DNA from: Ulota crispa
Lineage: Eukaryota > Streptophyta > Bryopsida > Orthotrichales > Orthotrichaceae
Direction: 5' to 3'
Assembly (NCBI GenBank): GCA_963920765.1
Contig: OY987243.1
Location: forward strand, 3,410,001-3,474,000
DNA length: 64,000 nucleotides
How positions within the stretch are numbered: position 1 is the first letter of the stretch; the number at the start of each line of letters is the position of its first letter. Both the position numbers and the translations under genes were made by a program. This document shows, piece after piece, positions 1 through 60,159 of this stretch. The notes below the pieces were generated by a model. That model ran no database searches. It was not told the origin of the DNA and worked only from the letters and a program-made list of their open reading frames with translations.

Positions 1-409
1 TTTGCCATAGATGTGATTTTTTGCTACTTTTTTCACTATTTTTTGACATTTCAAAAAAAAATTGCAAACAAAATAAGTAAGTCAATTGATATTTTCTTTC
101 ACCAATGTGTTTTTATATTGGTTTAAATCACTTTAAATCTTAATTTTTTTTCTTTTCAGTAGGTTTAAAATTCATATTTCACCTCCAAATGTGTTTTTAG
201 GAAAATTTCAGTATCTTTTTTCAACACTAAAACAGTATAATCTTTCAATCTATGTGGTCAAATGACCCCAAATTTGATCCATATCATCCACAACATGCAC
301 ACTACAAGATTGTATAGTTGAGATTTTTGTGTTCCACTAGCATTTCGAATTACAACACTTGAAAAGAAAGGATGATCTCAACCCTCTATGCACCTTAGGC
401 AATGAGGGG
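1..409. mobile_element. Partial TTAA element, right end only
   Basis: This AT-rich stretch ends in the sequence GGCAATGAGGGG and is followed directly by TTAA at 410-413. The end matches, in reverse orientation, the CCCCT-type ends of the other TTAA elements in this window. No matching left end is present, so the element probably begins before the window. It shares its TTAA with the next element (414-1059), so the two stand end to end. No coding capacity is visible. Confidence 0.45.
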
Positions 410-413
410 TTAA

Positions 414-1059
414 CCCCTCAAGACCCATGCACTTTCTTGAGTATCTCAAAATTTGTTCTTGGATGAACAAAATGTCAACCTTTTGATAAGTTGCATCAAA
501 GTTTTTTAAATTGTAACCGTACAAATTCAAACTAGATATGTTAGAGATCACATAGGAAAAGAAAACACAACAATATCACTTATGGATTGAAAGATTATAA
601 CATTTGATCAAGAGGGTATTAAAACTGTGAAAGTGATTTGGAGTCTTTAAATCCTCTTTCACATCTCAAATCTAAAACTAAGGATACCAAAAAAATATGA
701 GTATGTAAAGTACAACATGTTTAACCCTAATCAATTTATGGCTTCTTAAAATCTACTTTAAAACTTTTTACATTAAGTTTCAAATGTGATTGTTTCTCCA
801 AGTTCTAGTGTACTTTAGGCTCATTTCCAAGAGCTCTCAACACTAGAAAGTGAAGATTTGCAATGGATACCCTTGCACAAAATCTTAAATAGAAAAATCA
901 TAATTAGCCATTTTCAAAATCAGACTTTTGACATTAAAACAAGAATTGAACAAGAACTTTCAAAAATTAATTAATATTGTAATAAATCATGAAGAAAATT
1001 TAGGCATCCCAAATTATAAACAAGGAGGGACAGTTTTGGTCCCCATGGGCCTTGAGGGG
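414..1059. mobile_element. piggyBac-like MITE, family 1 copy (646 bp)
   Basis: The left end reads CCCCTCAAGACCCATGCAC and the reverse complement of the right end reads CCCCTCAAGGCCCATGGG. TTAA flanks both sides (410-413 and 1060-1063). The interior matches the copies at 17257-17902 (also exactly 646 bp) and 15869-16646; for example all three carry a block around a stretch reading GAAAACACA followed by TATGG-type sequence and GAGGGTATTAAAA-type sequence. No transposase frame is present, so it would be non-autonomous. Assignment to piggyBac rests only on the TTAA flanks and the CCC-starting terminal repeats. Confidence 0.8.
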
Positions 1060-1063
1060 TTAA

Positions 1064-1275
1064 CCCCTGAACGTCACATGGGCTCTGGAGATACGGTACC
1101 AAATACGGTCATAACCAATATTTAGAAGTTTGAATCAGCTAGAAATTAAGTGTTACAACCATACATATTGAAGGGTTGTATGATGGGGGGTGCATAAATA
1201 AATTTGGAAAGCCCTCAAAATAGCTCAAATACGTCCGTATATACAGCCACAAAGGGCTTTTGTGCCATTCATGGG
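1064..1275. mobile_element. piggyBac-like MITE, family 2 copy (212 bp)
   Basis: It begins CCCCTGAACGTCACATGG directly after TTAA at 1060-1063 and ends GCCATTCATGGG before TTAA at 1276-1279. A second copy with nearly the same sequence lies at 29491-29714. Shared internal blocks include GGTACCAAATACG and GAAGGGTTGTATGATG. It abuts a family 1 element on its left and a TA-flanked element on its right, so it is one link of a chain of insertions that share or overlap target sites. It has no coding capacity. Confidence 0.75.
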
Positions 1276-1278
1276 TTA

Positions 1279-1714
1279 AGGTAGAAGCACCCAAATGCAA
1301 CCTTTACCTTAGTTGTGGTAATTTGGAGGAACTTTTGAGAATGTAATGGCATGTGCTTGTTAGGAAATAGGTACAGATTCAAGCAGAAAAAAATTTGGAA
1401 TTTTTTGAGGTCATATGAATAGATTGTGAATTGTTAAAGATAATTCCCTAGATTGACCTATTGTGGACACTAGACCCCTGAAAAAGCGATAACAAAAAGA
1501 CCATGTCATGACAACAAAAAGACCATGTCATGACAACAAAAAGACCATGTCACTCCCAATCATAAACCGCCACCTACACAATTTCCTTTCCCTTATGTCA
1601 ACTTGCATGTTTGATTTGGGTGCATGCATGTCTTGTTTGGGTGCAAGAGTGTCTACTTTAGGTTTAATTTTAGATGTCGAAACACGCTAGTGTTGCAATT
1701 GGGTACTCCTACCT
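1279..1714. mobile_element. TA-flanked inverted-repeat element (mariner-like MITE?)
   Basis: The left end AGGTAGAAGCACCCAAATGC pairs with the reverse complement of the right end, AGGTAGGAGTACCCAATTGC. TA flanks both sides (1277-1278 and 1715-1716). A longer relative with ends AGGTAGGAACACCCATAAG lies at 29020-29487. The TA flanks suggest a Tc1/mariner-type element, but they are too short to be decisive. Inside, a 22-bp unit containing AAAAAGACCATGTCATGAC is repeated three times at about 1491-1553. No transposase frame is present. Confidence 0.55.
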
Positions 1715-1716
1715 TA

Positions 1717-9960: not shown

Positions 9961-10709
9961 ACATGTCTTTATTTTAGTTGGAAGCTACTATAGTACAAGA
10001 TACCATAAACCAACAATTTTTTCCCCAAAATTGTCAAATAATAGCTAACTTTGAATGACAATAATTTTATTTTGGCAAATAATAGCTCCACTATGCTTTT
10101 GTAAATTTTGTTTTAAGCCCTGAATGTCAGGTTGGTCACCATGATTAACGTTACAAAGGTGTAGCAAGTGTCCACCCATTATAATACTGTTATCAAAAGT
10201 TGCAAAAGTTAATAGTGCATGTTGCCCTCATGAAAATTGCAAGGGAGCATGGGACATAACATCATGTTCCTTAATCTTCTCACAATTTGGGTTACCTGAA
10301 AATATGAGTGCATTTGGTGAGGTTGTTTTTGCCTTCCATGATGGATCATGAATCTATGATCACTTCTAAAAAAAACAAGATTAAAAATAGCTTTCTCCAT
10401 CTTATAAAATGTTTTGTTTTTTTAATTTTTAGGGGACAAAAAACATCCTCTTTGGTATTGAAGGATTAAGACCTCCCTGCTTGTAGTTACAAAGAGTTTC
10501 AACTTATTAAGGGGTGCTATGAACTATGAACAATTTATATGGTTATTAGGGCTTTGGTGCTTTGTTATGTCTTACTTGTAGTTGATTACAGTAACTCTAT
10601 TTTTTAATCTATTTCTTCCAGATTTAGGATATATGTATATTTATATTCTTATCTATAATCTATAAAAAAACTCATGTTCTTACCTGTCCATTCGGTTGTT
10701 AGGCAACCG
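9961..10709. other. AT-rich intergenic DNA, nothing recognised
   Basis: No exon, RNA gene or repeat pairing stood out between the small foldback and the minisatellite. Frames are short. Confidence 0.5.
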
Positions 10710-13006: not shown

Positions 13007-13010
13007 TTAA

Positions 13011-13769
13011 CCCCTGAGCGCTCCAGCGGCGGAATCGTGTTGCTTAGGATTTCATATGCTTTTTTGAGGACCTAGATCTAATTTTTTGATCTTGTTATAA
13101 AGTAAAATTATGAAGGCATTCAAGTTATTCATGCCAATGGGGTAATGGCGAGGAAAGTCAAGCGTTGTACAAGTGTTTTAAGAGATTTGATTGGGTGAAA
13201 TACCATATGGGGTGTGGTGGCAAGCAGCATTTTATAAGCTATAGCTGGTCAACATCCCTTGCAAGCTTCCTTGTGTGTGCTTTGTGGTAGTGGGAAAGTT
13301 GTTGGCTAGGGTCCAAGGCATGTTCTAGACCCTTATTATGGCAACTGTCACCAACTAAGCTGGTCATTGTTTTCCGTGCAATAGCAATTTGAAGCCCTAA
13401 AACTTAACATAAAAAGAAGTGCAATTTTCAATAATTTACAAGTGTGTGCATTCACATATAATCTTGTTCCTCACAAAATTTAAGATGAGATGAATTAGGG
13501 GCTAACAGAATTTTGTAAATTTTATCAAATAGCAACTACCTACCAAAAAATGAGATTTTGTCATCACATGTTGTTTGATCAAATGTTATAATCTCCCATC
13601 TCCCACAATCAATTGTTCCCAAAATTTGCAAACCATTTTCTAAGTAGGTGTTCCATTATTTTCAATAGTCACTTTTTGTGAATCATCTAATTGACTGAAA
13701 TACAATGCATTAAAGCTGTTGGTCTCCAAAAACCTTGATTTTGGTGAAAATGACTTAGGCGCTCAAGGG
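13011..13769. mobile_element. piggyBac-like MITE (759 bp)
   Basis: The left end CCCCTGAGCGCTCCAGCGG pairs with the reverse complement of the right end, CCCTTGAGCGCCTAAGTC. TTAA flanks both sides (13007-13010 and 13770-13773). The interior is AT-rich with no coding frame and does not obviously match the other families in the window, although the ends resemble those of the element at 28193-28981. Confidence 0.65.
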
Positions 13770-14342
13770 TTAAGCTCTAACAACAATACAATGATCAAAA
13801 TAATTATCAAAAACGGAAAAATATTATGATGTAAGATAGGGGTAAGCGCTCCGGTGAGTTTTGTTTACCTATCAGCACTCAGTTGCTTTTTATTATAATA
13901 AAGGAAAATGTAAGAGGTTTTGGCTCTTATTTTATCAATGGTATTTTGTAAAAGAACTACACATATAATCAATATAAATCAGCATTGTCTGTGCCAAATT
14001 GGTTTTCTGTACATTTTTCATAAGTACTGTAGGTTGAGAGCAGATTTGGCATAAAATAATTCTTCAAAACTTTGTCTAATTATTTTATAAAATATTTTCT
14101 AAAAATGCCCAGTGTCAAACAAATCAAAATATTAAAATGCCAAATATTATAAAAGTCATTAAGCTTAACTAACAATGGAAGGTTAAGGTTGATTCTAAGA
14201 GGGCTCAATTTGCTGTAAATTTTATACCAAGGGCTAATTTTAGAAAGTGGAAGATGCTTAGAAAAAGACTTAATTCTACTAAATTTTTTGGTTGAATGCT
14301 AAATAATAACAACTTTTTTTGAAAGTGCCTAATCTTGTTTAA

Positions 14343-14552
14343 TCCCTAAAGGCCCAAGAAGCCCACTTTAAACTTTATGAGAACTCAGGTAGGCTCTATT
14401 GACTTCATAATTTGGAAATTTTTCATGAAATTTTTAGGATGGATGCTACTCATCATAATCTACATGTGAAGCTTTATTTCATGTCATTTGGATAAGTATT
14501 GCAAAAGTTATAAGGTTTTTTCAATTTCAATGTCAAACTGGGCAGCAATATA

Positions 14553-14628
<76 letters not shown>

Positions 14629-15306
14629 AATAAGAACTTTATAGATTGATACCTACTCAAAAAAATTGAACCACTCAATTCCAAATAATGAGGTAAGAGT
14701 TACAAGGAGTTTTCTTTTGCGGGCAATGAAGGTAGGAAGAGGGTAGAAAAAACATATAAAATTATCTTTTACTCTCAATTTTGAAAATTTTCAAATGAAA
14801 ATGAAAATGAAAATGAAAGTTACTAATTGTCTGTTAGAGCATTCTTGCCATTGGGATTAACAATTTTCAAATTCTTCCAAAACTTATTAGCATATTAGTT
14901 ATATCTTTCATTCATCAATACCTTTCACTTTACAATTTTTGTAAAAGTAAATCCAAAAAATTTTTGGTTAATTTTTTTATATATACTTTCAACCCATTCT
15001 CCAACATGTTGCAAAAATTGCACAAGAAATACAACATATAAATTTTTCTCTAAAAAGTTTGAAAAACAAAACTTCACCTTTTGGAAGGACTAGAAAAGCC
15101 TACATTTAAAATTTAGGCACATTGATCTTGCAATTGGTGGGGATGTTCATTCTAAAATTTTGGGACAATGTACTTGTGCAAGTCAATCAAAGAATCCTAC
15201 AGTTGGATTTGTTAAAAAGTAAGTTTCAATGAAAATTTTGACCTTGGTTAGGAGACTAGTATTTTGAAGCAATTTTGGGCCTCTAAACATGAAAGAATTT
15301 TAGGGG
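14343..15306. mobile_element. piggyBac-like MITE, family 3 copy (964 bp) with TA expansion
   Basis: The left end TCCCTAAAGGCCCAAGAAGC and the reverse complement of the right end, CCCCTAAAATTCTTTCATG, are flanked by TTAA at 14339-14342 and 15307-15310. An inverted full-length relative lies at 32848-33763, with long colinear identity (for example both carry a block reading CATGAAATTTTTAGGATGGA). This copy contains a (TA)n tract at about 14549-14626 that the other copy lacks. That tract accounts for most of the length difference. No transposase frame. Confidence 0.8.
14549..14626. repeat. (TA)n microsatellite
   Basis: An almost pure TA tract with a few TATATG and TATATAC interruptions, inside the family 3 element. 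The homologous position in the inverted copy near 33541-33556 holds only a short AT-rich stretch, so the tract expanded after the two copies separated. Confidence 0.9.
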
Positions 15307-15868
15307 TTAATTACAAAATCTAATGCCAAATTGGTTTTTTCTCAAAAAATAATCAATTTGACATAAACCTGCCGAATCTGCTCTCAACCTATAATACACG
15401 TAAATTTGAAGACGCTATCTGTGAATTTCAATAAATGTTCATTTTGTTTTGTAGAGATAGAAAAACATTGGCTGAAGGCCATTTCTTGTCTACATTTCTC
15501 CTAAAGGTTTTGTTTCAAAGAGTAGAGGCTTTAAATTAAGAAGGTTACATGATAAGCAATTCAACCCTAGTGAGATTTTTGATTTTTGATTTTCAAAAAT
15601 GATATCACACGTCTTCCATGTGTCGTTAAATTTTCAAGAATGATCGTGAAAATCTGAAGTTATTGTGGAATTTTTAAGAAAAGGTGAAAAATACTCATAG
15701 TAGATACAAAATAAGCTCTAAAATCTGAACGGGTGCAAGATATAGTGTAGAACATTGTGGTGAAAACTTAAATTGTGTATACTCTTATAATCAGGATATC
15801 AATAGTCCTCAATTTTAGGCCCAAAGTTCAACTTGCAATACATTATTCAAGATTTGGGAATCTTTTAA

Positions 15869-16646
15869 TCCCTAAATGCGCAAGGCACTTTTGAGCTTCT
15901 AAGAATTTATTCTAAGTTGAACAAAAAGCTAAAATTCTGATAAGTTGTATGATTTTTTTAAGATTTTAACCTTACAAAATCATACTACATATGTTACAAA
16001 TTACTCATAGGAAAAGAGAACACAACAATATCATTTATGGATTGAAAAACTATAATGTTTGATAAAGAGGGTGTTAAAACTGTGAAAATGCCTTGAAGTC
16101 TTTCAATCCTCTTTTCACGTGTCAAATTTAAAAAATGGACACATGAAAAATATGGGGTTAAAGGAAATAACATATATAACTCCAATCAATTTATGACTTT
16201 TCAAAATCTCCTCTACAATCTTTTCAAATGAGTTTCTAGTGTAAATTTTTCTCCAAGGTCTAGTGTATTTGAGGCTCATTTCCAAGAGCTCTCAACATCA
16301 AAAAAGTCAAGATTGCAATGGACACCCTTGCACAAAATCTTGAATAGAAAAATCATAATCAATCATTTACAAAATTGGTTTTGTGATACTTAAAAAAGAC
16401 TTTAGAAAGAACACTGTAAACGGGTAGCAGTTTTGGCAGTCAAATGGCAAATTAAATGCTTTTCTGACTTCAAGATACACTATAAGGGGGGTCAAAAAAA
16501 CATTTGATTTGCCACTAACTGCCGAAACTGCTACCAGTTTATAGTAGTTAAAAATTAAAATTTATTAAAAATAACAACTTAGTTAGATTTTATAGAAGTT
16601 CAAAGTATTGTCAACACCATAATGTGGTACCTTGGGCATTTAGGGG
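15869..16646. mobile_element. piggyBac-like MITE, family 1 copy carrying an insertion (778 bp)
   Basis: The left end TCCCTAAATGCGCAAGGC follows TTAA at 15865-15868. The right end GCATTTAGGGG is followed by TTCA rather than TTAA, a one-base decay. The interior is colinear with the copies at 414-1059 and 17257-17902. It is about 130 bp longer, which is roughly accounted for by the small inverted-repeat insertion at 16411-16549. Confidence 0.75.
16411..16549. mobile_element. Small nested inverted-repeat insertion (about 140 bp)
   Basis: The left arm TGTAAACGGGTAGCAGTTTT GGCAG pairs with the reverse complement of the right arm, TATAAACTGGTAGCAGTTTC GGCAG. It is absent from the other two family 1 copies, which makes it a clean insertion polymorphism between copies. 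Its ends loosely resemble those of the element at 14025-15396 (AGCAG followed by TTTGGCA). Confidence 0.6.
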
Positions 16647-16650
16647 TTCA

Positions 16651-17252: not shown

Positions 17253-17256
17253 TTAA

Positions 17257-17902
17257 CCCCTAAATGCCCAAGCTCGATATGTGCTTTTTGGACTTTCCAT
17301 GAAACTGAACTATCAATCAACCTTTTCACAAATTTCCTCAAAATAATTTCAATTGTAACCGTACAAATTTAAACTAAACATGTTAGAGATTACATGGAAA
17401 AAGAAAACACATCAATCTCACTTATAGTTTGAAAGATTATAACGTTTGAACATGAGGGTGTTAAAAGTGCAAAAGTGATTCAAAGCTTTCTAATCCTCAT
17501 TTTACATGTCAAATCTAAAAAGTTAATCACTAAAAAAATATGAGGTTTAAGGTTATTACATGTTTAACTCTAATCAATTTACTGTTTTTTAAATCTACTC
17601 CTACATTTTTTATAAATGGATTTCTAATGTGATTTTTTTTCCAAGCTCTAGTGTAATTGAGGCTCATTTTCAAGATCTTCCTACACTAGAAAACTCAAGA
17701 TTGTAGTGGACACCCTTGTACAAAATCTTGAGTAGAAAAATCATCAACTTTCGTTTTCAAAATCAAATTTTTGATGCTGAAAGTAGACTTCAAAACAAAC
17801 TTATATTGGAAAAAAAAATACTGAAAATAATGACTTGATAAGGTTTTATTCATCTTTAAAATTTTGTTGCGACCCAAATCTGGTTACTTGGGCATTTAGG
17901 GG
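17257..17902. mobile_element. piggyBac-like MITE, family 1 copy (646 bp)
   Basis: The left end CCCCTAAATGCCCAAGCTCG pairs with the reverse complement of the right end, CCCCTAAATGCCCAAGTAAC. Perfect TTAA flanks lie at 17253-17256 and 17903-17906. It has the same length as the copy at 414-1059 and a colinear interior. This is the best-preserved pair of ends in the window. Non-autonomous. Confidence 0.85.
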
Positions 17903-17906
17903 TTAA

Positions 17907-24974: not shown

Positions 24975-24978
24975 TTAA

Positions 24979-26138
24979 TACCTAAAGGATTATTGTCCCC
25001 TTGGGGTCAAATGGGAATCTGGACATGTATCTATGGCTGAATTACTTTATGTGATTTTTTGAAACTTTTATTGAAGGTGGGAATTCAAAAACTTACATGG
25101 GCATCTAAAATTTTCTTCATTCCGACATTTATTAAAGTAATTATGCAAGAATTTGTCAAAACTAGAGGAGAAGGGGCAATTTGGGCAAGACCTCTCCTTT
25201 GTAAGTGGGTGTTTCCTCCAAAGAGGATTAGCTCTTACAGACACAAGGTGTGAACACTTGGAGAAAGGGGGGTGGAGTGGAAGGAGCTAGTCTTCAACGG
25301 CTCCCAACCCTCCATTCCATTTGCGCCTTATAAAATTTGGTACTTTATTGTTTTGAGCAATTTGGGGGGTTTTTATTTTCCAAGCTATAGTGGACTAGCT
25401 AATAGTCTTTGCTTTTGACCGTTTGGATTATTATAATTCAAATTTCTGAATTTTTCATAAATCCTCCAATTTTGTCTAGTGTAATTGCAAATTTTAGGAC
25501 TTTCTAGCATTCAAATTCTTTTGAAGTATGTTGTGCACCTCCAACTCATTTGAAAATTCTCCAACACATACCTAACTTGGTCTTCTCATTACAAGGGATT
25601 TGGACCCAAGAATGGGCCCCTTCCCCAAAACCATGGGAACTTTGGGCCCATTCTCCCGAAACATGGGAACACTTCCACATGGCAGACTGACCTGGTCAAA
25701 GCTCGACCACGTCAAATGATATGATTATTAATTATTATTATTTTCCTCTTTTCATACGACTAGCAGGGGTTGGTTCTTAGCATTGGGAACAATCAAACTT
25801 GCAGCCCCTTGGAGGGCTCAAATTCTTCCTAATGACATGGAGCAATTACACCTTAATTTTGTGTGAAGTAATTTTTTTGCTATATGAGGGGTCAAAGGCT
25901 TCTTAAATTTTTGGGTAGGAAAGACAAAAACTTTTTTCTTCAATTCAAATGTCAATATCTTACTCCTCTCTAATTTGAAATGAGCTGGTTTTTTTCTTGC
26001 AAGTACCTTATGTAGCCTTGGGCAAGATCTTGCAATTGGATTTTTTTTTTAACTCTTTCCACTACTATTCTACTCATTCTACTAAAAGTGGTTGTTTTCA
26101 ATAATTTTCACATTAAAAAGGGCTTGGTCCTTTAGGGG
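24979..26138. mobile_element. piggyBac-like MITE, family 4 copy (1160 bp)
   Basis: The left end is TACCTAAAGGATTATTG and the reverse complement of the right end is CCCCTAAAGGACCAAGCCC. TTAA flanks both sides (24975-24978 and 26139-26142). The left terminal 160 bp match the arms of the foldbacks at 54910 and 59322. The right part, read in reverse, matches the left part of the copies at 35339 and 45890. It is the longest copy in the window. Its centre contains a duplicated GGGAAC-type segment (about 25625-25675). No transposase frame. Confidence 0.75.
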
Positions 26139-26183
26139 TTAATAACAAAAATTGATTAACTCTCATTGATAATCAATCCTTAA

Positions 26184-27094
26184 CCCTTTAAAGACCATTC
26201 ATTCTCCTCAAACTTCACTAGAAACAACAATAGTAAATTTTGATGTGCAATTGAATCAAATATGACCCAATTTAAAGGATCCAACCATATGAATGGGAAG
26301 AGCATATTGTTTATTATAAAGCATCAAGATCTTAGCCAAATCTACTATAGGAGGTGAAATATTATAATGATTGAATGAGCCATAGGTGGAAAATCTCTAG
26401 TTTTTCATGATTGTGATGTTTTAGATGTTAACACTTCATGTGAGTTGTTTTTGAGAAGGGCCTTATATTTTTAGAAGGCAAGGTTTTCCACTTTTTCAAT
26501 AAGACTATTTTTACACAAAATGGATAAAACTAGCAATCACACAATGTAGCAAAGTGGACAAAAAGGGTCAAAAATTGCATTTTATTTGCCACCCTAAAAC
26601 AATCCTACAAGAATAGATGTATGCCATGGAAAATCTTATTGGCAAAAATAGTTAAAAATTGGCCTCAGATGTAGGATGACAAATTTTAGAAATGAAATGA
26701 CAACACCATTTCAATAGATTTTCAAGTACCAAAATTATATTGCTATTGTAAAGAGAAACAATATGAGAGTTTTCCTTTAGCAATTTGAATTTTTTTAGGA
26801 CTATGCAATTGAAATATGACATTCTTTTTGAATATTTAATGTAATAAATTGTTACTTTGATCCATCTTTAACCAAAAGTGTGTATGTATTTTGAGGCCAT
26901 ATTATATAAACACCAATATTCATCAACTCACATATAAATTTCCATTATCATTTTTTAGTTGAATGTAAAACTCTTGAGATCATATGTATTCTTCAAGACC
27001 AAATTCCAAATTGTTGAACAATTTTTATTCCGTAGGCCAAAAACCACTATTTACAAAAAATAAAATAAAATAAAATACATGGTCTCTAAAGGGG
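26184..27094. mobile_element. Probable piggyBac-like MITE with decayed right flank (911 bp)
   Basis: The left end CCCTTTAAAGACCATTC follows TTAA at 26180-26183. The reverse complement of the proposed right end is CCCCTTTAGAGACCATG, followed by AACA instead of TTAA. The ends pair well but the right target site is lost, so this copy may be old. It starts only 41 bp after the preceding element. Confidence 0.5.
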
Positions 27095-27129
27095 AACATA
27101 AACTGTTTATTTATAATCAACACTTGAAT

Positions 27130-27560: not shown

Positions 27561-28192
27561 GTAAATGTGTATATCGGATGCCCAATCGGATGATTGCCCG
27601 GGGATAAAAATCCTAGTATAGCCTGCACCTGAATCAAAAGTAGCTATCAGTCTCTTAGTGAGTAGTAAATTTTGAAATCCTTGATTCACGTGTTCCGCTA
27701 CAAGTACAGCTAATGCAATAACCCAGAGTCACGGTTATTAGTTATTATTTATTACCACTGCATGCTAATGAGCACCAAGCTATCATGACATGACTCACGA
27801 ATAAGGTGGTCTACTCGAATTGCTGCCCTCTCACCTAGAGAATCCCTACAATTAGCTGGGTATGTTTGAAACTTTGAATTGCTACCCTCTCACTTAAAGA
27901 GTCCCTATAATTAGCTCAAGAATGGATGTGTAGTGGTTCTTAATTAGACCCTCTTTAGTCATTGAGTGGATATAAATAAAGGCCTATTTTTTGCAAGAGT
28001 CAATCAAATTTCTTGGTTTCACTTAACTCTTTACAATTGCAAGGGGACAGATTCAAAATATCTAAAGTCATAAATAGATATCTATTACAAATTTTTTTAA
28101 AAACTCATCAACAATTCAATTACGTTTCAAAAAACATAAAAAAATTGTGTTGCATTTTACATCTACCATGAAAAATCCAACCAATCCTTAAC
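27561..28192. other. Intergenic DNA with a partial direct duplication
   Basis: A segment containing GAATTGCTGCCCTCTCAC and CCCTACAATTAGCT at about 27818-27860 is repeated with changes at about 27876-27915. No gene was recognised. Confidence 0.5.
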
Positions 28193-28981
28193 CTTTGAGC
28201 ATCCACAGTGGAATCAAGAAAATGCGGCCAAGAGGGACCATGCACAAAAAAAGTGTGCGCCCCAAGTTGTGAACTTAGATTGAGGAGGAATCACCGCTAA
28301 AATAGCAAAAAGGGTGCTTGATGCACCCGACTAGAAATTTGCAGAACTTTTAACCACACCATTTTGGAGATTATAATAGTCAAAGTACAATTGACTAAGT
28401 GGAAACCGGCCAATTTCAGGGGATCCGTGGCTGTAGACGCATAAATTCATGCCTTAGAGGAGGCTCTTTTTAATGAAATTTAGGTTGGAGGTGCAATTTA
28501 CAAATATCTCACTTGCTATCAAATTTGGTGATGTTTAGACATCCGCAAGGTGCTTTTTCATAAGACCAAAGTTGCAAGGCTCACACGGCATGGTGGACAA
28601 TAGATGGGGGATAGGCATAGTTTTGATCTCCACAATGGCATGGCTCTTGATAGTACAACTACAAAACCCTTCTCCAATCTAAGGCATGCTTGCCAAAACA
28701 CCCCTAACGATATGGAACTGGTCATAACCAATAGTCTCTATCCTTGCACCTAAGCCCTAAACCGCACAAAATGAAATTCTAACATATTATTGTCATACTT
28801 GAATTGCACAATCTGTGCTTGTATGAGTGGTGAAACCCCATTACCCACTATGTGGCATGAGAGTAGTACTATAGCTTGAAACAAGTGCAGTTTTCCGAGT
28901 AGTTCACGTTTGATTTGGACTTGCTTTTGTGAAAAGTTTGATTTCAAGAGGCAATATTTGGGGCACTGGGGTGCTCAAGGG
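28193..28981. mobile_element. piggyBac-like MITE (789 bp)
   Basis: The left end CCTTTGAGCATCCACAGTGG pairs with the reverse complement of the right end, CCCTTGAGCACCCCAGTGCC. TTAA flanks both sides (28189-28192 and 28982-28985). The interior is unlike the other families. Its end motif TTGAGC is shared with the element at 13011-13769. Non-autonomous. Confidence 0.75.
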
Positions 28982-29019
28982 TTAAAGTGACTGTTCTTGA
29001 GCATACTACCTTAGCAGTA

Positions 29020-29487: not shown

Positions 29488-29490
29488 TAA

Positions 29491-29714
29491 CCCCTGAAGG
29501 GCCCTTGGGCTCTGGAGCTACGGTACCAAATACGATCGCAACCAATATTCAGAAGTTTGAATTAGTTAGAAATTAAGTGTTACAACCATATATATTGAAG
29601 GGTTGTATGATGATGGGTGCATAATTTTTTTTGAAAAGCCCTCAAAATAGCTCAAATACGTTTGTATATATGATCATACATACAGCCGCAAAGGGCGTTT
29701 GGGCGCTTCAGGGG
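29491..29714. mobile_element. piggyBac-like MITE, family 2 copy (224 bp)
   Basis: The left end CCCCTGAAGGGCCCTTGGGC pairs with the reverse complement of the right end, CCCCTGAAGCGCCCAAACGC. TTAA flanks lie at 29487-29490 and 29715-29718. It is colinear with the copy at 1064-1275 and about 12 bp longer, mainly because of an extra TATGATCATACA-type stretch. Non-autonomous. Confidence 0.85.
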
Positions 29715-31277: not shown

Positions 31278-31281
31278 TTAA

Positions 31282-31934: not shown

Positions 31935-31938
31935 TTAA

Positions 31939-32843: not shown

Positions 32844-32847
32844 TTAA

Positions 32848-33763
32848 CCCCTAAAATTCTTTTGTGTTTAGAGACTCAAAACTGCTTCAAAATACTAGTC
32901 CCTAAACCAAGGTTAAAATCTCCATTGAAACTTACTTTTTAACAAATCCAACCATAAGATCTTTTGGTTGACTTGCACAAGTACATTGTCCCAAAATTTC
33001 AAAATGAACATCCCCACCAATTGCAAGATCAATTTGCCTAAATTTCAAAATGTAAGCTTTTCTAATCCTTCTAGAAGGTGAAGTTTTGTTTTTTAAAATT
33101 TTTAGAGAAAAACACATATGTTGTATTTCTTGTGCAATTTTTGCAACATGTTGGAGAATGGGTTGAAAGCATATATAAAAAAAATTAACCAAAAAAATTT
33201 TGGATTCGTTTTTTCAAAAATTGTAAAGTGAAAGGTACTGATGAATGAAAGATATAACTAATATGCTAATAAGTTTTGGAAGAATTTGAAAATTGTTAAT
33301 CCCAATGGCAAGAATGCTCTAACAGACAATTAGTAACTTTCATTTTCATTTTCATTTTCATTTGAAAATTTTCAAAATTGAGAGTAAAAGATAATTTTAT
33401 ATGTTTTTTCTACCCTCTTCCTACCTTCATTGCCCGCAAAAGAAAACTCCTTGTAACTCTTACCTCATTATTTGGAATTGAGTGGCTTAGTTTTATTTGA
33501 GTAGGTATCAATCTGTACAATTTTAAATAATCACAATAATAATTTAGAATATATTTTTTGCTGCCCAATTTGACATTGAAATTGAAAACACCTTTTAACT
33601 TTTGCATTACTTATTGGAATGACATGAAATAAAGCTTCACATGTAGATTATGATGAGTAGCATCCATCCTAAAAATTTCATGAAAAATTTCCAAATTATG
33701 AAGTCAATGGAACCTGCCTGAGTTCTCATAAAGCCCAAAGTGGGCTCCTTGGTCCTTTAGGGG
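32848..33763. mobile_element. piggyBac-like MITE, family 3 inverted copy (916 bp)
   Basis: It starts CCCCTAAAATTCTTTTGTG after TTAA (32844-32847) and ends TCCTTTAGGGG before TTAA (33764-33767). Read in reverse, it is colinear over its whole length with the element at 14343-15306, about 18.5 kb away. The pair forms a long inverted repeat across the 19-32 kb region, a possible substrate for inversion. It lacks the (TA)n expansion of its partner. Confidence 0.85.
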
Positions 33764-34072
33764 TTAATCTCCAAAGGACTAAACAATTTTTTTCTTTTTT
33801 TTGGCAGCATGGCAATTTTGGGTAGGCTAGTACTTATAGAATAATAAATATATTTCCACAAAATGAATTAGAGAATGTGTGTATGAGGAGCAGCTTTCCA
33901 ATGCAACAATTTTCAAAACATTTTGGTTTGTAAAAAAAAACTAAGATGGAATATGTACTTTTGTTTGCTCGTAGGGCAGCATGGGCACATGCTGAAATTT
34001 TGGGATCTTGCCCAAATCTTGAGGGACAAAGACATTTCCTTGTCAAACCTAGACCCAATCCCATTCCATTAA

Positions 34073-35088
34073 ACCCTAAACGCCCAAGGGGGTAAGGGCA
34101 GAACGTAGATACATCATAAATTGATACTTTTGTAACTTTGATGAAGATTGCTTCTAAAGAGAAAACAAGAATCATGGTGTTAAGTAATTATCCATACACT
34201 CAAACATTCAAAAAATGTTTTGGATTCTTATTTAATGAATTTAGAAGCATTTACCATTTAATATTCATGAAAACTACAAATTTTATTCATGGAATACAAA
34301 ATTTGGTATGATTGGTTGTTAATAATTGACATTCTACTCTAAAAGTAAAAGATATTTTCTTTTTGAAGAAGAGAACATTATTAGTTTCTTGAAATAGTAA
34401 ATTTTGTAACATTAGCAAATAATGAAGTGTTTATCTTTGAAAAATTCTCCTTGGTGGAGTTTAACCTAGATTGACATGATTCAAATTAGGTCATTAGCAA
34501 AAATATAAGCTCTCCACAAGGCCCCTAACAACCCCTTTCAAGGGGTCTCCTTAATTGTTTTAATTTTTACTTTGGGATAACAATAATTCCTTACACCCTA
34601 CTATGCCTTTGAGTGCAATCATGGCTCACATTGGCATGTCCAATTTTCATTGGATGTCACAATTACATGTACATATTACCATGGTCCTTTTTCTCTATAT
34701 TAAAATCTTCAACCTTGTACTTATGAGGATAACATTTAGTTATAATTGTATACAATAGTAGGAGAATAATTAAAAAATTGTGACATAGTACTAGATTGCC
34801 ATTTTTTATTCATAATTTTTGTGATGTACAATAGGAAAGTCATGCGAGGTAGAGACACATCACACAAGTTCTCACATGCTTCTAATGTATCTGACCTAGG
34901 CTCAATAAATGTCAAGGGCGTCAAATTTTAAGGCCCCTGTGGAGGGTTGAAAATTTTGCTAATGTGAAAAGTAGACTTGCTTTCCTATATGAAAGAATTT
35001 ATTATTTCTTCAAAAAAGCTTTTTTTCTTTTTGAGCATCTTGCAAAGAAGGGCAGCAACTAGAAATTGGTCAATTGGGTGCTCAAGAG
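34073..35088. mobile_element. Possible diverged TTAA element (1016 bp)
   Basis: A left end ACCCTAAACGCCCAAGG follows TTAA at 34069-34072. A right end whose reverse complement is CTCTTGAGCACCCAATTG precedes TTAA at 35089-35092. The ends match only partly, mainly through transitions. Inside, CATTAGCAAAAATATAAG at about 34492 pairs with an inverted copy at about 34930-34964, so an older inverted-repeat element may be nested here. Confidence 0.4.
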
Positions 35089-35338
35089 TTAAGTAACAAA
35101 AATTTGATCTACAAAACATTCAATGAGACTTTTGATAGGCCCAAATTTTGTAAAACATACATTTTTATTTTTCAATTAGTTTTTCATCAAGTAAACAAAA
35201 TATCATGTTTTGGGATACAAACTTAGTAACAGTATTTGAGTCAAGCAAAAAAAATTGGTTTCTTAAAAAAATACATATTTCTAAATTTGGCCTATCACAA
35301 GTTTCACTAAATCTTTTGATCAGATTTTTGTTACTTAA

Positions 35339-36261
35339 CCCCTAAAGATCCAAGCCCTTTTTTGTAAAAGTCACTGAAAATTGCTAATTTTAGTAAAATG
35401 AGTAGAATGGTAGGAAGTTTTTTCAGATCTTGCCCTAGACTATGGGAGGTACTTGTGGAAAAAAATCAGCTCATTCTAGAGGTAGAGGAGTGAGATATTG
35501 ACATCTAAAGTGAAAAAAAATGTATTTTTTCCTACTATCCAATAAATTTCAAAAGCCTTTGACAACTCCTATATCAAAAAATTCCTCTACGCAAAGTTGA
35601 GGTTTATTTTTCCCATGTAGAAGACCGAATTATGTAAGTGTGGAAGAATTTTTATATGAATTGGAGGTGTGGATCAGACTTTGTAAATCTTGCAATGCCA
35701 TAAGGTCATGAAATTTGCATACACATTAGGCAAAATTGGAGGATTTATGTAAAATTCAAAAACTTGAATTATTGTGATCCAAACAGTAAAAACCAAGGAA
35801 TCTTAGTCTACTACAACTTGGAAAAAAAAGAGTCAAAAAACAAATACACAAACCGCTTAAAAAAGCAAAGAACCAAATTTTACAATGGGCAAAAGGGATG
35901 GAGGTTTGGGAGTCCCATACCTACCCGCAAACTAAAACTTCTCACAACTTTCATCACATCAATCAAAATTGAATGATTCAAAGCTCCCATATATGTGTAC
36001 ATCTAAAGAACCAATTTTAGATTTTTGTTTTAAAAAAGTACAATTTTTTTTGGGCTGCCCGATTCTCCCTTATATTTTAGTTATTTGTGCATAACTACTT
36101 CAATAAATGTTGGCATGAAGAAAAAAAAATATATATCCACTCATGTTTTTGAATTCCCCATCTTCCATAAAAGTTTTAGAAAATCACACAAAGTAGTTTA
36201 GCTGTAAGTACATGCCCAAAATCCCACTTGGCCCCTAAGGGGCCACTTGGGCCTTTAGGGG
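35339..36261. mobile_element. piggyBac-like MITE, family 4 copy (923 bp)
   Basis: The left end CCCCTAAAGATCCAAGCCC follows TTAA at 35335-35338. The reverse complement of the right end is CCCCTAAAGGCCCAAGTGG. The right flank reads CAAT, so the target duplication is lost. It is colinear with the copy in the ABCG intron (45890-46818): one half carries GAGTAGAATGGTAGGAAG-type sequence, the other the GTTTAGCTGTAAGTACATGC-type arm shared with the two foldbacks. Confidence 0.8.
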
Positions 36262-37120
36262 CAATCATTTTTTTGGTCGCCACCTCTAACATATTTTGGC
36301 CCATGAAAAACCTTCCCTGCAAATATACCTCAGTCTCACAAGGACAATACAACATTCATTGTCACAAAAAAAAACCTTGTTTAGGGGTTAGGGGATTTTT
36401 TTTAGCATGGACAATGTGTGTATGGATGCTTCCTACTTATCCATGGAATCAAATTTCAAAAATTCATCACAGATGATTCAATCAATTATCATGTAAAGCC
36501 ATGAATTTCTAACAAAGTAATTCACCAAAAATGGAGTTTTGGTTTTTAGGAACTGAAATTTGGTATTCTGAATTGGGATTGCACAAGGATGCAATGATAT
36601 TTTTTTAACAAAAATACACTAATTGTATTCCACTTTTCATCCAAAAAATTGAATGGCTGAAACATGCAGTTGGTAATAATAGTGTACTCCACTACATAAT
36701 CTATGTGGGTCACTTTCATAATTATATAATGACAATACTAGTAATGATACTTGTTATCCAATGGGGTGCATGAATATAATTTAAAAAAATGAATGTGCAC
36801 ACAAACTATCATCTTTTCTTGCTACGCTTTCTTCTCCCCCACCTTCCTTAATTTCAAAATTTGAGAAAAAAAAGAGATACCCAAAGCTAGAGAGAGCCTC
36901 AAAATTTCAATACTTTAAAAACACCAAATAAAAATTCCAATATTCTTTTGCAATTCCAAAGACTTTTCACAATTCAAGTGACCTTTCACAATTCCACCAT
37001 TTTTCACCATCCATTTGCTTTTCCCTTTCCCTTTGTGATGTTTCACCCCCTTTTGGGTGCCTTTTCCTCTTCAAGGAGACAATTACCAAGTAGTAATAAG
37101 TAAAAGGATCACGATAAGGA
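36262..37120. other. AT-rich intergenic DNA with pyrimidine tracts
   Basis: No gene was recognised. A pyrimidine-rich segment containing TTTTGGGTGCCTTTTCCTCT at about 37050 resembles a segment near 2625, possibly shared repeat DNA. Confidence 0.4.
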
Positions 37121-44000: not shown

Positions 44001-47000
44001 TGATATCCATCAAATCAAACTAGCTCCACTCACATTCATCGTCTTCTCTATCTCAAGAGTGTACACTTCGTATGTGGTTAATTATTGTAGTGAACTCGCC
44101 ATTGACAACATCTGTGCATGCTGCTGCAGAGTGGCAGAGAGGAACAAGCAGGAGGAAGCTTGGGCCGTGCAAGTTTCGTGCGGCAGTGCATGACTCTCAC
44201 ACAGCGCTCGTTCGTGAACATGACACGAGACCCAGGGTACTACTGGCTTCGTGTGGCGATGTATGTCATGGTGGGCATATGTCTGGGCACCATCTTCTGG
44301 CGAGTGGGTCTCCGGTACAACTCCATCCTGGTGAGCGCACAAGTAATTGCAACTCTAATATGTGACGAGTACAATACTTGCGAATTTTGTCATTCCACGT
44401 TTACAACCTTCAACACCGCATGATTCGCATCCTTTGTGCTTCGAACTTGCTAACTAACAGAGCATTGTAAACCTTGTTCATTTCCTTCCTAGAAATGTGG
44501 AGGAGCTGAGTATGCTTGCCTTAGCACTCCTGTTCCTAATAGTTATCTTTGCTTTCGTGCAGCATCTGTTAGGTTAGAGTTTACGCATACTCTGCAACCT
44601 TCGGAAGCCCCGTGCACTGATAACAAGTTTAGTATATCTTTTGGTGTATAAACGCAGGCGCGATCGGGAGTGATGTTCTTTGTGGCAGCGTTCCTGACGT
44701 TCATGGCAATTGGCGGGTTCCCTTCGTTTGTGGAAGACATGAGGGTGTTTTATCATGAGCGCCTCAGTGGGCATTACGGCGTAGCAGTGTTCGTGGTCGG
44801 CAACATACTGGCGTCGCTTCCGTTTCTGTTCCTGATCGCATTGTCATCAGGAACTCTTGTGTACTTCATGGCGTGGCTGCATCCCGGGTTCGGCCACTAC
44901 GCCTATTTCGTCCTTATGCTGTTTGCGGCCTTGACGTGCGTGGAGAGCCTCATGATGGCCGTGGCCAGCGTCGTGGGTCGCAACTTTCTGGCCGGCATCG
45001 TCGTCGGAGCCGGCATCCAGGTTCGAATCACCCCAGCCTAATCGATTCACGTCAATGCTAGAGATCTAGCTTCGTATACGGGAGAGGCAGGTTTAGGGTT
45101 TAGGGTTTAGGGCATCTGAATCCACGCACTCGCACATCCCAGCTTTTGTTTCGGACATGTTGTAAACGTGCGCAACTTATCTTGGGTCATTGGAGGATGG
45201 AAATCCTTACAAAGCTCAACTTATTTGCCGGATATCAGTCAAGATTGTTTGTGAATGTAGAACCAGGCGGAGGAGTCCCTGGAGCTTTCCATCATGGCCA
45301 GCATAACATACCGTAATGATATCTTTTTTCGGAGATCTTGAAAGTCATCTGCGTCGCTAACTTCTTTGTGTACATCGCTGCATTTGTTGTAAGCAGGCCA
45401 TTTACATGCTGTTATCGGGTTACTTCCGATTGACAAAGGATTTGCCGAAGCCCGTGTGGAGGTACCCAGTATCGTACATTGCTTTTCACACTTACGCAGT
45501 GCAGGTGAGTTAGTACAGCATCGACTTTTCTTAAAGTGCCCAAAATCATAAGCAAATATTTGACCGTAGTCTTAATACTCAGCGTCGGGAGGTGCCACAG
45601 CGGTGGCAACTTTTGATGGGCAACGAAGAGAGTTGGCGATGCTAGAGTTCTGTAGTGAAAGGGCCAGACCATGTTCGCAATTGCGAAATATATTGCACAC
45701 AACAGGAAAGAGTGAGAAAACTAGAGTTGCAAATGGTTGTTTCTTGTGTGTCAGGGTTTTGGTAACTCTAGAAAATCCGAACAATGGCTCAAACTTGCTT
45801 ACATTGGTAATCTGTCTTTTAATGGCAAAGCAGGCCTGGTCATGAAGAACAGAGCAATAGCAAGTCAGTACCTTCTCAATCTTTATTAACCCCTAAAGGC
45901 CCAAGCCCTTTCTTCCACTGAAAGTTACTGTTAACTGCCACTTTGGGGGGAATGAGTAGAAAAGTAGGAAATAAAGTTTGTTTTGCAAATCCAACCGTAG
46001 GATTTTGCCTTACACTAGAAGAGGTACTTGTGGAAAAAATCAGGGCGTTCTAGATGGAGAAAAGGGAGATATTTAGATCCGAAGTGCAAAAGAAAGTTTT
46101 TTTCCTTGCTGCCCAAAAATTTCAGAAGCCTTTGATCACTATTATAACAAAAAAGTTGCTCTATCCAAAGTTGCACTTTTTTTTCCATGTAAGAGATCAA
46201 GTTAGGTATATGTGGGAGAATTTTCAAATCAGTTGGAACTATACAACACATGGGGGAAAGTAGTAAGTAAAAAGAAGTAGAGAATGAGTCAAATCACTAA
46301 ATTGTTAAGAGTTTAATTATTAAAATGAAAAATGCAAATCCCAACGGTTATAATGTTGTATTAAACAATCTACTTTCGTAGGTTTAGTTTATTTTCCAAA
46401 ATATTAAAAATTGTGAAAAATAAAGGACTTCAAAGTTTATTTTAGAGTAGAGAATCCATAACTGCCCACAAACTAAAACATCTCATAACTTTCATCTCAT
46501 TGATTGAAGTTGAATGATTCAAAGCTTCCCAAATACAAAAAAATCTAACGAACCAATTTCAGATTTTTATTTTAAAAAAGTCGAATTCTTGAAAAAGTTT
46601 TTGGGCTGCCCGGATTGCCCTCCCTCCCCGGGCAGCAAAAATTCTTGCATATCTTCTTTGTCAAATGTCATAATGACAAAAAAATTAGATTCCCGCATAG
46701 GTTTTGGAATTCCCCACCTTCAATAAAAGTGTAAAAAAATCACAAAAACTAGACTATAGCTATAGGTACATGCCCGAAATCCATTTGTCTCCCGGGGGGA
46801 CAGCTGGGCCTTTAGGGGTTAATAGCATAGCAGACTGGGTCATGATAAATAACGGACACTCAAGACCTTACTCGTCGTTGACGTGGCTTGGTGTTCTTTA
46901 CTGCATTATTTTTTCGTAACTTAGCTAGCTGTGCTATTACTTGCAGGGGCTGTTCAAGAATGATTTTCCAGGTCTCACTTTTGAGAATTTCCTGGGAGCG

Positions 47001-52512: not shown

Positions 52513-52516
52513 TTGA

Positions 52517-52752
52517 CCCTGGAACGACCAAGCGGCCCTTTGTGCCTTGTACAATATGGGGTACTTTTCTTGTATTTGGAGGGCATCCACACCTTTATTA
52601 CATTTGAGATTAATAAAGAAGTTAGAATATTGATCAATGCTTTTTTAGTGAGGTAGTCAAGATCTCAAATTAAATTTTTTTTATTGGTAGCAAATGTTAG
52701 TTATACAACAACATACATACTATGTATTATAGTAGCTCGGTCTTTTATGGGT
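52517..52752. mobile_element. piggyBac-like MITE, family 5 copy (236 bp)
   Basis: It lies in reverse orientation relative to the copy at 58343-58580 and is colinear with it throughout. It is flanked by TTGA (52513-52516, one base from TTAA) and TTAA (52753-52756). The reverse complement begins ACCCATAAAAGACCGAGCTAC. It contains CCTTTATTACATTTGAGA, shared by all three family 5 copies. Confidence 0.75.
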
Positions 52753-52756
52753 TTAA

Positions 52757-54905: not shown

Positions 54906-54909
54906 TGAA

Positions 54910-55631
54910 CCCCTAAAGGACCGTGAGCCCTTTTGGGGGACAAATGGGATTTTGGGCATGTACCTATGGCTAAACTACTTTGTGTGATATTTTGAAATTT
55001 TTATGGAAGATAGGGAATTTTGAGACCTATGTGGGCATCTACTTTTTTCTTCATTCCGACATTTATTGGAGAAGTTAAAAATGAAAATCTAGAAAACAAA
55101 TATGAGCAGGCAGCTCAAAACTTCTTTAAAAATTGCATATTTTTCAAATAAAATTGTGAGATAGGTTCTTTAGACTTGTATATATGTGGGGAGCTTTGAA
55201 TCATTCAATTTTGATAAATGAGATGAAACTTATGAGAAGTTTTAGTTTGCAGGTAGGTAAATTTTCTCTCAAAACCACACCTACCTGCAAACTAAAATTT
55301 CTTATAACTTTCATGTCATCTATCAAAATTGAATTATTCAAAGCTCCCCACTTGTATGTAATTCTAAAGATCCTATTTCACAAGTTTATTTGAAAAAAAA
55401 TGCAAATTTTGAAGAAGTTTTTGGGCTGCCCACCGAGCGTTGTTTTCTAGATTTTCATTTTTAACTTCTTCAATAAATGTCAGAATGAAGAAAAAAGAGA
55501 TGCCCACATAGGTCTCTTAATTCCCCATTGATCCTCCATAAAAATTTCAAAAAATCACACAAAGTAGTTTAGCCATAGGTACATGCCCGAAATCCCATTT
55601 GTCCCCCAAAGAGACAACGGTTCTTTAGGGG
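54910..55631. mobile_element. Full-length foldback TTAA element, family 4 (722 bp)
   Basis: The left end CCCCTAAAGGACCGTGAGCC and the reverse complement of the right end, CCCCTAAAGAACCGTTGTC, open two arms of about 350 bp that pair almost to the centre near 55268. Examples are GTACCTATGGCTAAACTACT with its complement near 55566, and the TTTGCAGGTAGG block with CCTACCTGCAAA. Flanks are TGAA (left, decayed) and TTAA (55632-55635). The arms are homologous to one end of the family 4 elements at 24979, 35339 and 45890. Confidence 0.88.
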
Positions 55632-55635
55632 TTAA

Positions 55636-57396: not shown

Positions 57397-57400
57397 ATAA

Positions 57401-57624
57401 CCCTAAACATTTGAAAGTGCCTTTGCAACTAATACAATACAAGGTGTTTTTTTAATGTTTGGAATGGATTCACACCTTTATTACATTTGAGACTAACAAA
57501 ATGGTTGGAATGTAAATAAATACTGTTCTAGTGATCATTTTGAGATCCCAGTTTAAAACTTCTTGTTGGTAACAAATGCCAATTATAGACAACACATCTA
57601 CTATCCCCATGGGATATTTAGGGG
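57401..57624. mobile_element. piggyBac-like MITE, family 5 copy (224 bp)
   Basis: The left end CCCTAAACATTTGAAAGTGC follows ATAA (one base from TTAA). The right end GGGATATTTAGGGG is followed by TTAA at 57625-57628. The interior, including CACACCTTTATTACATTTGA, is colinear with the other two family 5 copies. Confidence 0.65.
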
Positions 57625-57628
57625 TTAA

Positions 57629-58338: not shown

Positions 58339-58342
58339 TTAA

Positions 58343-58580
58343 CCCTTAAAGGACCGAGCTACCATAATACATAATATGTACAGTGTTGTATAACTGGCAT
58401 TTGCTACCAACAAAAAGTTTTAATTTGGAATCTTGACTACCTCACTAGAACAACATCGATCTATATTTTAACTTCTTTAATTGTTGATCTCAAATGTAAT
58501 AAAGGTGTGAATGCATTCCAAATACAAGAAAAATACTCCATATTGTACTGGTCGCAAAGGGGTGCTTGGTCGTTTAAGGG
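58343..58580. mobile_element. piggyBac-like MITE, family 5 copy (238 bp)
   Basis: The left end CCCTTAAAGGACCGAGCTAC pairs with the reverse complement of the right end, CCCTTAAACGACCAAGCACC. Perfect TTAA flanks lie at 58339-58342 and 58581-58584. It is the best-preserved copy of this 0.24-kb family in the window. Confidence 0.85.
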
Positions 58581-58584
58581 TTAA

Positions 58585-59040
58585 GAGCCTTATTGGAGCA
58601 TTCTTGATTTTGTAATGGTTGCTTTTAGATCTCATGTGCTCCATTTACAAGCTGCCTTTGCATCATGAATGCTACCACCTATGATCAAGAGTAGATACCT
58701 ATGTACCTTTTGTTTAGACAAATTGTAGTTAATTCATACCAACTCAGAAAATTCCAATTTAAATGGCCATAGTGCTATTTCTTCTTTGACATTCTACCCA
58801 AAATATTTCCAAATTACTAAACTGTCTGGATTTTTGTACAAACGTCATCTTTCCCTCAGATGCTCGGTTTACGAGCCTCCTACCTTGTACTTTGTAGGTG
58901 GATACCAAGCTTCACCACATCCGATATGTATAACTAATACTTTTCAAAACATGGGGCCAGTAGTTTGAAATCTTCCTTGAAATTCCGAGGATTTCTTATG
59001 AAAAAAAAGTTGATTTTTAAGAACAATTCCCAATAATTAC
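58585..59040. other. Intergenic DNA before an exon-like island
   Basis: A possible short exon (58861-58902, between a CAG and a GT, reading MLGLRASYLVLC) lies here. It is too short to support on its own. Confidence 0.3.
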
Positions 59041-59068
59041 ATTACCTACTTTTGAATATCAAATGTCA

Positions 59069-59236
59069 GGTTCGTCCTTGCACAAGTTAGAGAGGGAACT
59101 AGGGAAGTGCTGCAGAATCGTCAGGTGCCAGCTGAAAGCGACACGTGGACACTACAATTGCCTTTGAAAGAGTTTTCAACCAACTTCCTGCCCGCCGTGT
59201 TAGTAAAAGGCTCCAAGGGCCTGAACGGTAACTAAG
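59069..59236 (+). pseudogene. Orphan exon-like island, product unknown
   Basis: After a CAG acceptor at 59067-59069, an open frame reads VLAQVREGTREVLQNRQVPA, continues through ESDTWTLQLPLKEFSTNFLP and ends GSKGLNGN before TAA. The base composition (about half GC) contrasts with the surrounding AT-rich DNA and resembles the exons of the real genes here. I do not recognise the protein. It may be the last exon of a decayed or captured gene. Confidence 0.35.
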
Positions 59237-59321
59237 TTATTGTTCAAACGAACCCACCAGATGGGCAGCATAATGTGTAGGGTAAGGGCCTCACGTACTA
59301 GTAAGGCATTCTCACGTTTAA

Positions 59322-60031
59322 CCCCTAAATCCCTCGGGGACCAATGAGATTTCGGGCAGGTACCTATGACTAAACTATTTTATGTGATTTTTGAAATTTT
59401 TATGGAAGATGGAAAATTTGAAGATCCGTGTGCACATCTAATTTTTTTTCATTTTGACATTTTTTGGAGAAGTAAAAAATGAATTTCTGAATTTTTTGGA
59501 GATGTGGCAGTCTAGGCAGCCCAAATTTTTTTTTAAGTTTACATTTTTTTTGAAATAAAAATCTGAAATTGGTTCTTTGAGTTTACATACACATGGGAAG
59601 CTTTGAATCACTCATTTCCAATAAATGAAATGAAAGTTATGAGGACTTTTAGTTAACTGGTAGATATGGTTCATATCTACCAGTTAACTAAAAGTCCTCA
59701 TAACTTTCATTTCATTTACTAGAAATGAGTGATTCAAAGCTTCCCATGTATATGTAAACTCAAAGAACCAATTTCAGATTTTTATTTCAAAAAAATGTAA
59801 ACTTAAAAAAAAATTGGGCTACCTAGATTGCCCCATCTCCAAAAAAATTCAGAAATTCATTTTTTACTTCTTCAAAAAATGTCAAAATGAAAAAAAAATT
59901 AGATGTGCACACAGATCTTCAAATTCCCCATCTTCCATAAAAGTTTCAAAAAATCACACAAAGTAGTTTAGTCATAGGTACTTGCCCAAAATCTCAATTG
60001 TCCCCTGAGGGGACACTCATGGATTTAGGGG
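59322..60031. mobile_element. Near-perfect foldback TTAA element, family 4 (710 bp)
   Basis: TTAA flanks both sides (59318-59321 and 60032-60035). Two arms of about 345 bp are nearly exact reverse complements, meeting at a three-base loop (GATATG GTT CATATC) centred on 59670. Arm similarity is highest toward the centre, where about 60 bases pair without a break. A transcript through it would form a very long hairpin. The sequence is a close relative of the foldback at 54910-55631 and of one half of the other family 4 elements. Confidence 0.93.
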
Positions 60032-60159
60032 TTAAGCCATTCAAAATTAAGATAGAGTTCAAGTAATTAGTGGTACAAACGTGAGATTGTCCATGCTTGA
60101 GGTATTTAACTTGCATAAAGGTTGCTTGAACAAAATATCATCACATGTTTTTTTTAGAG

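Follow-up and report, generated by a model that had tools for sequence, protein, structure and literature searches.

A 64-kb stretch of the moss Ulota crispa genome (C2:3410001-3474000, hereafter the window) is crowded with short elements flanked by TTAA, which raises the question of the transposon superfamily to which they belong. The window comes from a 274.8-Mb assembly of 157 contigs, in which C1-C10 measure 15.8-41.4 Mb. A chlorophyll a/b-binding protein encoded in this genome has the longer chain 9vfj_2 as its top match among solved chains, followed by 8htu_U and 7xqp_a; 8htu and 7xqp come from the moss Physcomitrium patens. A preliminary description of the window had interpreted the elements as piggyBac-like miniature inverted-repeat transposable elements (MITEs), at least 20 in number, of at least five families and about 13.7 kb in total, with no transposase encoded beside them. 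Our results leave us highly confident that the window elements are MITEs, non-autonomous and of several families, that belong to the piggyBac superfamily.

Elements in the window and their insertion sites

The end sequence TTAACCCCTNAAGGNCC, searched with at most 3 mismatches on both strands, matches the window 34 times, whereas 100 shuffled sequences gave 1.49 matches on average and never more than 5. A weight matrix was then derived from the window's own ends and used to scan both the window and ten Markov-1 controls. It finds 56 sites scoring above 6 in the window versus 9-21 in each control and, because the controls give such numbers, single sites near the threshold were not relied on alone. 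Pairing of inverted ends assigned both ends to 18 elements of 220-1,168 bp, of which 14 have an exact TTAA on both sides. When the TTAA is counted, the two ends of an element agree at 12-17 of 17 positions in 17 elements and at 11 of 17 in one. As in piggyBac, the terminal inverted repeats are short and start with CCC or CCY. The elements are short, non-coding and present in high copy number, as is typical of MITEs.

Among the pairs, the elements starting at 24975, 28188 and 52513 each have one end that scores only 6.7-9.0, within the range of chance. Beyond the 18 pairs, two elements have a degraded second end that was placed by eye (26180 to ~27097 and ~57397-57628), one element is truncated (34069-34491), and for a right end at 397-413 no left partner was found within the window. 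The union of the ~21 elements covers 13,553 bp, or 21.2% of the window, with approximate limits for three of them. The number, the coordinates and the total length of the preliminary description were thus borne out. BLAST self-comparison separates the elements into at least five sequence families, as had been proposed; examples, given by first position, are {410, 15865, 17253}, {1060, 29487}, {14339, 32844}, {35335, 45886, 54906, 59318} and {52513, 57397, 58339}.

Empty sites had been suggested as a check in related strains; we used paralogous copies inside the same genome instead, and six filled/empty comparisons were informative. In all six, the insertion lies at a single TTAA or at a one-base variant of it, and none shows a longer duplication. 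PiggyBac insertions are expected to duplicate their 4-bp TTAA target in this way. The TTAA of the empty site is exact in four comparisons. Three junctions were read by eye. The element at 14339-15310 is absent from a paralogue at locus L009, where a single TTAA stands at 9619-9622, and within this paralogous stretch the window in turn lacks a MITE found at 8902-9554 of L009, showing a single TTAA at 14270-14273. The element at 58339-58584 is absent from a paralogue at L018. A self-insertion was also found on C1, where a copy of the 17253 family is broken by a full-length relative at its TTAA 295-298, and a TTAA flanks the insert at either end.

The other two comparisons come from a search of the genome with the joined flanks of 13 window elements, of which 11 gave no paralogue spanning the junction. 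Matches were obtained for 10113-10469 at 21 places (5 fetched) and for 13007-13773 at 3 places (3 fetched), and the 8 fetched copies are ungapped at the junction itself. Two observations on these copies weigh against the piggyBac assignment: 7 of the 8 depart from TTAA by one base, and to the right of the junction, at a distance of 8-11 bases, the empty copies for 13007-13773 have gaps of 1 and 6 bases. Comparison of 29487-29718 with L028 aligned one flank only and gave no information on an empty site.

A different repeat, with TCATTA...TAATGA ends, lies at ~25587-25836 inside the MITE 24975-26142. It was considered as a further empty-site case and rejected, as its ends are not TTAACCC.

Transposases and the elements that frame them

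According to the preliminary description, an autonomous partner should exist, or have existed, elsewhere in the genome. A profile search of the genome with PF13843 returned at least 120 match rows (best E 1.3e-73), from the best 116 of 528 first-look candidates, some rows being parts of one gene. None of the 120 rows lies in the window. No PF13843 match was found in 14 control genomes, a weak control given that these genomes look prokaryotic. Of the 120 matches, 110 contain in-frame stops, and the transposase partners therefore look largely decayed. By hand tally, the stops within the matches are 252 TAG, 157 TGA and 61 TAA; the excess of TAG might stem from CAG-to-TAG decay at methylated CHG sites.

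Pieces of open reading frames (ORFs) were also scanned against PF13843. The best four give E values of 2.3e-64 to 2.6e-59, and smaller pieces match down to 3.7e-7. Comparison with solved structures, made for the L031 ORF alone, gave no matches at E<=1 other than piggyBac 6x67 (4e-20) and piggyBat 9c0f (6e-17). The first two catalytic aspartates align with those of piggyBac 6x67 and are invariant in all five aligned ORFs. These ORFs are 32-58% identical to the first of them, and therefore several transposase lineages are present. A GVD motif, whose aspartate we take to be the third of the catalytic DDD triad, has D in two of the three aligned ORFs that reach it and N in L031; visual inspection also showed the motif in downstream ORFs at L012 and L009. 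Judged from these alignments, the transposases are predicted to carry the DDD triad of piggyBac. Cys/His-rich C-terminal tails are seen by eye in L010, L012 and L013. A point against the assignment is that PF13842, the profile for the Cys-rich tail, stays below the Pfam cut-off, with E 0.29 in one of these three.

Locus L029 (G000:C1:1178500-1184500) holds a divergent PF13843 gene with ORFs at 591-1235, 2150-2641 and 2912-3838 (+), apparently split into exons. Its three catalytic motifs are readable by eye and its two matched stretches contain no stops. In the 6 kb examined there is no matched TTAA-CCC frame, and the two ends present both lie to the right of the gene. L029 is a candidate for a single-copy or host-adopted piggyBac gene.

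We then analyzed 10 kb around each of the 20 best PF13843 loci. A locus was considered framed when inverted ends with at least 15 of 17 positions in agreement, counting the TTAA, lay 4.8-6.5 kb apart around the transposase, and this matched-end, fixed-span criterion was chosen after some framed loci had been seen. Nine of the 20 loci are framed, versus none of 5,000 random window positions, and the framed transposase-bearing elements measure 5.0-6.3 kb. PF13843 transposases between the same ends as the MITEs had been anticipated, and together with the empty sites and the presence of PF13843 genes in the genome this result upholds the piggyBac assignment. L009 and L018 occupy separate sites; they are 90% identical over 5.0 kb, and their alignment stops at TTAA-CCC ends on both sides. 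The alignment of L012 with L022 stops at a TTAA-CCC end on one side only.

The link between the MITEs and these larger elements was also seen in one terminus. The right terminus of the MITE 17253-17906 (17855-17906) and one end of the transposase-bearing element L022 share 52 bp at 90% identity. Past the 17-bp repeat the match scores 50, a value that none of 100 shuffles approached (highest score 26). The right terminus of 28188-28985 is barely above its shuffles (26 versus 24). Derivation of the MITEs from a transposase-bearing element is thus supported by a common terminus in a single element.

Several points weigh against connecting the MITEs to the transposases in this way. No matched frame was found at 11 of the 20 loci, and the nine framed loci are not all independent: L009 is a copy of the same element as L018, and L012 is related to L022. 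The 5,000 control positions overlap and all come from one 64-kb window. Pairing of ends by score alone, which was dropped, found pairs at 15 of 20 loci versus 70% of random positions at score 20, and at 9 of 20 versus 36% at score 40; it failed to discriminate because the ends are so dense. Among the ten transposase elements compared, a clear terminal partner was found for one of 36 MITE termini, and none for the commonest end class seen, TTAACCCCTAAAGGACC.

One alternative is that the MITEs were moved by another TTAA-targeting superfamily, for example Sola3, and that the piggyBac transposases are unrelated bystanders. Sola3 also has TTAA duplications, the duplication alone is not unique to piggyBac, and the unframed loci and the missing partner of the commonest end class would be accounted for. 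However, the same ends frame nine of the 20 best PF13843 loci and none of the control positions, and one MITE has terminal sequence in common with a PF13843 element. Full-length relatives encoding another transposase class were not seen, although other classes, Sola-type transposases among them, were not searched for. We consider this explanation very improbable.

If the MITEs are piggyBac elements, as we favor, their family membership suggests how they would have spread. By analogy with piggyBac, movement would be by cut-and-paste at TTAA with seamless excision, and the transposases of the larger elements would have mobilized the short ones in trans. Each element end, with its copy of the TTAA, would then offer a fresh target. 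Head-to-tail neighbors have one TTAA in common at window 410-413 and 1060-1063 and also at L046, possibly because a duplicated TTAA was reused as target.

Abundance in the genome and in plants

Across the whole genome, TTAACCCCTNAAGGNCC occurs exactly at 12,397 sites, compared to 1 for the reversed control, and with at most 2 mismatches at 58,805 sites versus 446, the control being ~130-fold rarer. The search with the ends that had been recommended at the outset therefore extends the window result to the genome. The inner part CCCCTNAAGGNCC has 14,723 exact sites (control 29), and TTAA stands directly before 12,397 of them (84%). With two ends per element, 58,805 ends correspond to at least ~29,000 elements. 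Within the window, ~13.55 kb of elements go with 22 ends of at most 2 mismatches, and their density (344/Mb) is higher than in the genome (214/Mb). Rough scaling from this one denser-than-average window would place the elements at ~36 Mb, or ~13% of the genome.

Whole-element searches were performed with three window MITEs (45886, 17253 and 29487), and the 40 best copies of each, query included, were scored. The families of 45886, 17253 and 29487 gave 9,518, 4,477 and 2,114 first-look candidates, respectively. Leaving the query aside, 39 copies were scored per family, and 31, 31 and 38 of them extend from the first to the last base, with identities of 86-88%, 89-94% and 88-92%. As these are the best-scoring copies, the typical copy is probably more diverged, and all three families appear to be old, not recently active. 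The stretches L009 430-1155, L016 6366-6874 and L026 6443-7317 are palindromic with arms 92-96% identical, and given these arms certain fold-back elements may postdate the window copies.

These counts also bear on the idea that TTAACCC is a common motif, telomere-like or AT/C-rich, rather than a transposon end: plant telomere repeats are CCCTAAA and the ends do contain CCCTAAA-like words, but the rarity of the reversed control, the co-terminal ends of most scored copies and the existence of empty sites make this idea practically untenable.

As piggyBac-type MITEs, the elements were compared with known systems. The elements resemble the piggyBac superfamily (DDE_Tnp_1_7, PF13843; 6x67, 9c0f) in their TTAA target and its duplication, in inverted repeats starting with CCC and in a PF13843 transposase with catalytic aspartates in place. 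They differ in that the host is a plant, that the framed elements of 5.0-6.3 kb are mostly broken, and that ~29,000 or more non-autonomous copies far exceed the transposase rows (at least 120). Two coral genomes (PMC2872659, which PMC9942856 cites for piggyBac MITEs) likewise have short, non-autonomous elements linked to piggyBac, but those hosts are animals, whereas here a plant has tens of thousands of ends. The standard plant MITE superfamilies (PMC12550479) are alike in being short, with inverted repeats and high copy number in plants; a survey of 207 plant genomes, including four bryophytes, uses five superfamilies and Micron, and in its available text a piggyBac class is not named (PMC12550479).

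The preliminary description pointed out that piggyBac is seldom described as abundant in plant genomes, and it is this abundance, not the mere presence, that is new. Presence in plants is already in print: piggyBac-like elements have been stated to occur there (PMC8086355), and PiggyBac is tabulated among the superfamilies found in all major groups, land plants included (PMC4438587). In a partial assembly of Ceratopteris, 1,230 piggyBac copies were annotated, for 122 kb and 0.00% (PMC6890710). A moss genome annotated with EDTA has 29.13% of TIR elements, CACTA being the largest group (PMC11704416). In these sources, piggyBac in plants is recorded merely as present or at trace level. Two papers using piggyBac as a tool in plants are, in the text available, silent on endogenous elements (PMC10905368, PMC4309413). 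An incomplete literature search, mosses, liverworts and hornworts included, found no report of a plant genome rich in piggyBac MITEs in the text available. The scale in a plant is thus the notable part.

We propose, tentatively and at somewhat less than even confidence, that mobile DNA in this plant, and in its relatives, has piggyBac-type MITEs as one of its leading classes, at more than 10% of the bases of this genome, and that they went unseen because common plant pipelines lack a piggyBac class and place them under CACTA, Tc1/Mariner or unknown. To our knowledge, a piggyBac class is absent from EDTA. A plant with so many piggyBac ends would indicate that a MITE survey confined to five superfamilies can overlook a major component, and that piggyBac bursts on a large scale can occur in a plant nucleus. 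PiggyBac is a standard seamless transposon tool, and this plant would supply an endogenous plant piggyBac system for study.

Features of the window and other observations

Table 1. Elements, ends and an empty site of the window (window coordinates)
Feature	Position	Strand	Remark
Right end TTAACCCCTCATTGCCT, left end not found in window	397..413	-	Resembles ends of transposase elements L009/L018
piggyBac-type MITE 654 bp, TTAA both sides	410..1063	.	TTAA 410-413 and 1060-1063 common with neighbors; family of 15865, 17253
MITE 220 bp	1060..1279	.	Family of 29487-29718, 89% over 184 bp
MITE 357 bp	10113..10469	.	Empty copies spanning junction at 21 places, 5 fetched
MITE 767 bp	13007..13773	.	Empty copies spanning junction at 3 places
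Single TTAA, empty site for MITE at L009 8902-9554	14270..14273	.
MITE 972 bp, expanded AT microsatellite	14339..15310	.	Empty site L009 9619-9622; 94% to 32844-33767 over 672 bp
MITE 786 bp, right TTAA mutated	15865..16650	.	End matches, self-BLAST, pairing
MITE 654 bp, terminal match 17/17	17253..17906	.	4,477 first-look genome candidates
MITE 1,168 bp, left end weak	24975..26142	.	Interrupted by other repeat at ~25587-25836
MITE ~918 bp, right end degraded, placed by eye	26180..27097	.	Similar to L014 917-1829
Probable MITE 798 bp, left end weak	28188..28985	.	Matrix scan, pairing
MITE 232 bp	29487..29718	.	2,114 first-look candidates; 38/39 other scored copies co-terminal
MITE 661 bp	31278..31938	.	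End matches, pairing
MITE 924 bp	32844..33767	.	End matches, self-BLAST, pairing
Truncated MITE, left end intact	34069..34491	.
MITE 931 bp, right TTAA mutated	35335..36265	.	End matches, pairing
MITE 937 bp, terminal match 17/17	45886..46822	.	9,518 first-look candidates; 31/39 other scored copies span 1-937; 86-88% identity
MITE 243 bp, ends degraded	52513..52755	.	84% to 58339-58584
MITE 730 bp, palindromic	54906..55635	.	Aligns to one L009 element in both orientations
MITE ~232 bp, left end degraded, placed by eye	57397..57628	.
MITE 246 bp	58339..58584	.	Empty site in L018
MITE 718 bp, palindromic	59318..60035	.

Besides these elements, the window contains a 25-bp minisatellite of more than 30 units at 10784-11850. 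For an open frame of 497 aa at 19037-20530 (-), Pfam gave no match at the thresholds applied. The ORFs at 49122-51722 (-) carry a glycoside hydrolase 17 and an X8 domain and are probably one plant beta-1,3-glucanase gene. Elsewhere in the genome, eight chlorophyll a/b-binding matches of equal or near-equal scores lie within 0.4 Mb (G000:C4:21391382-21771811).

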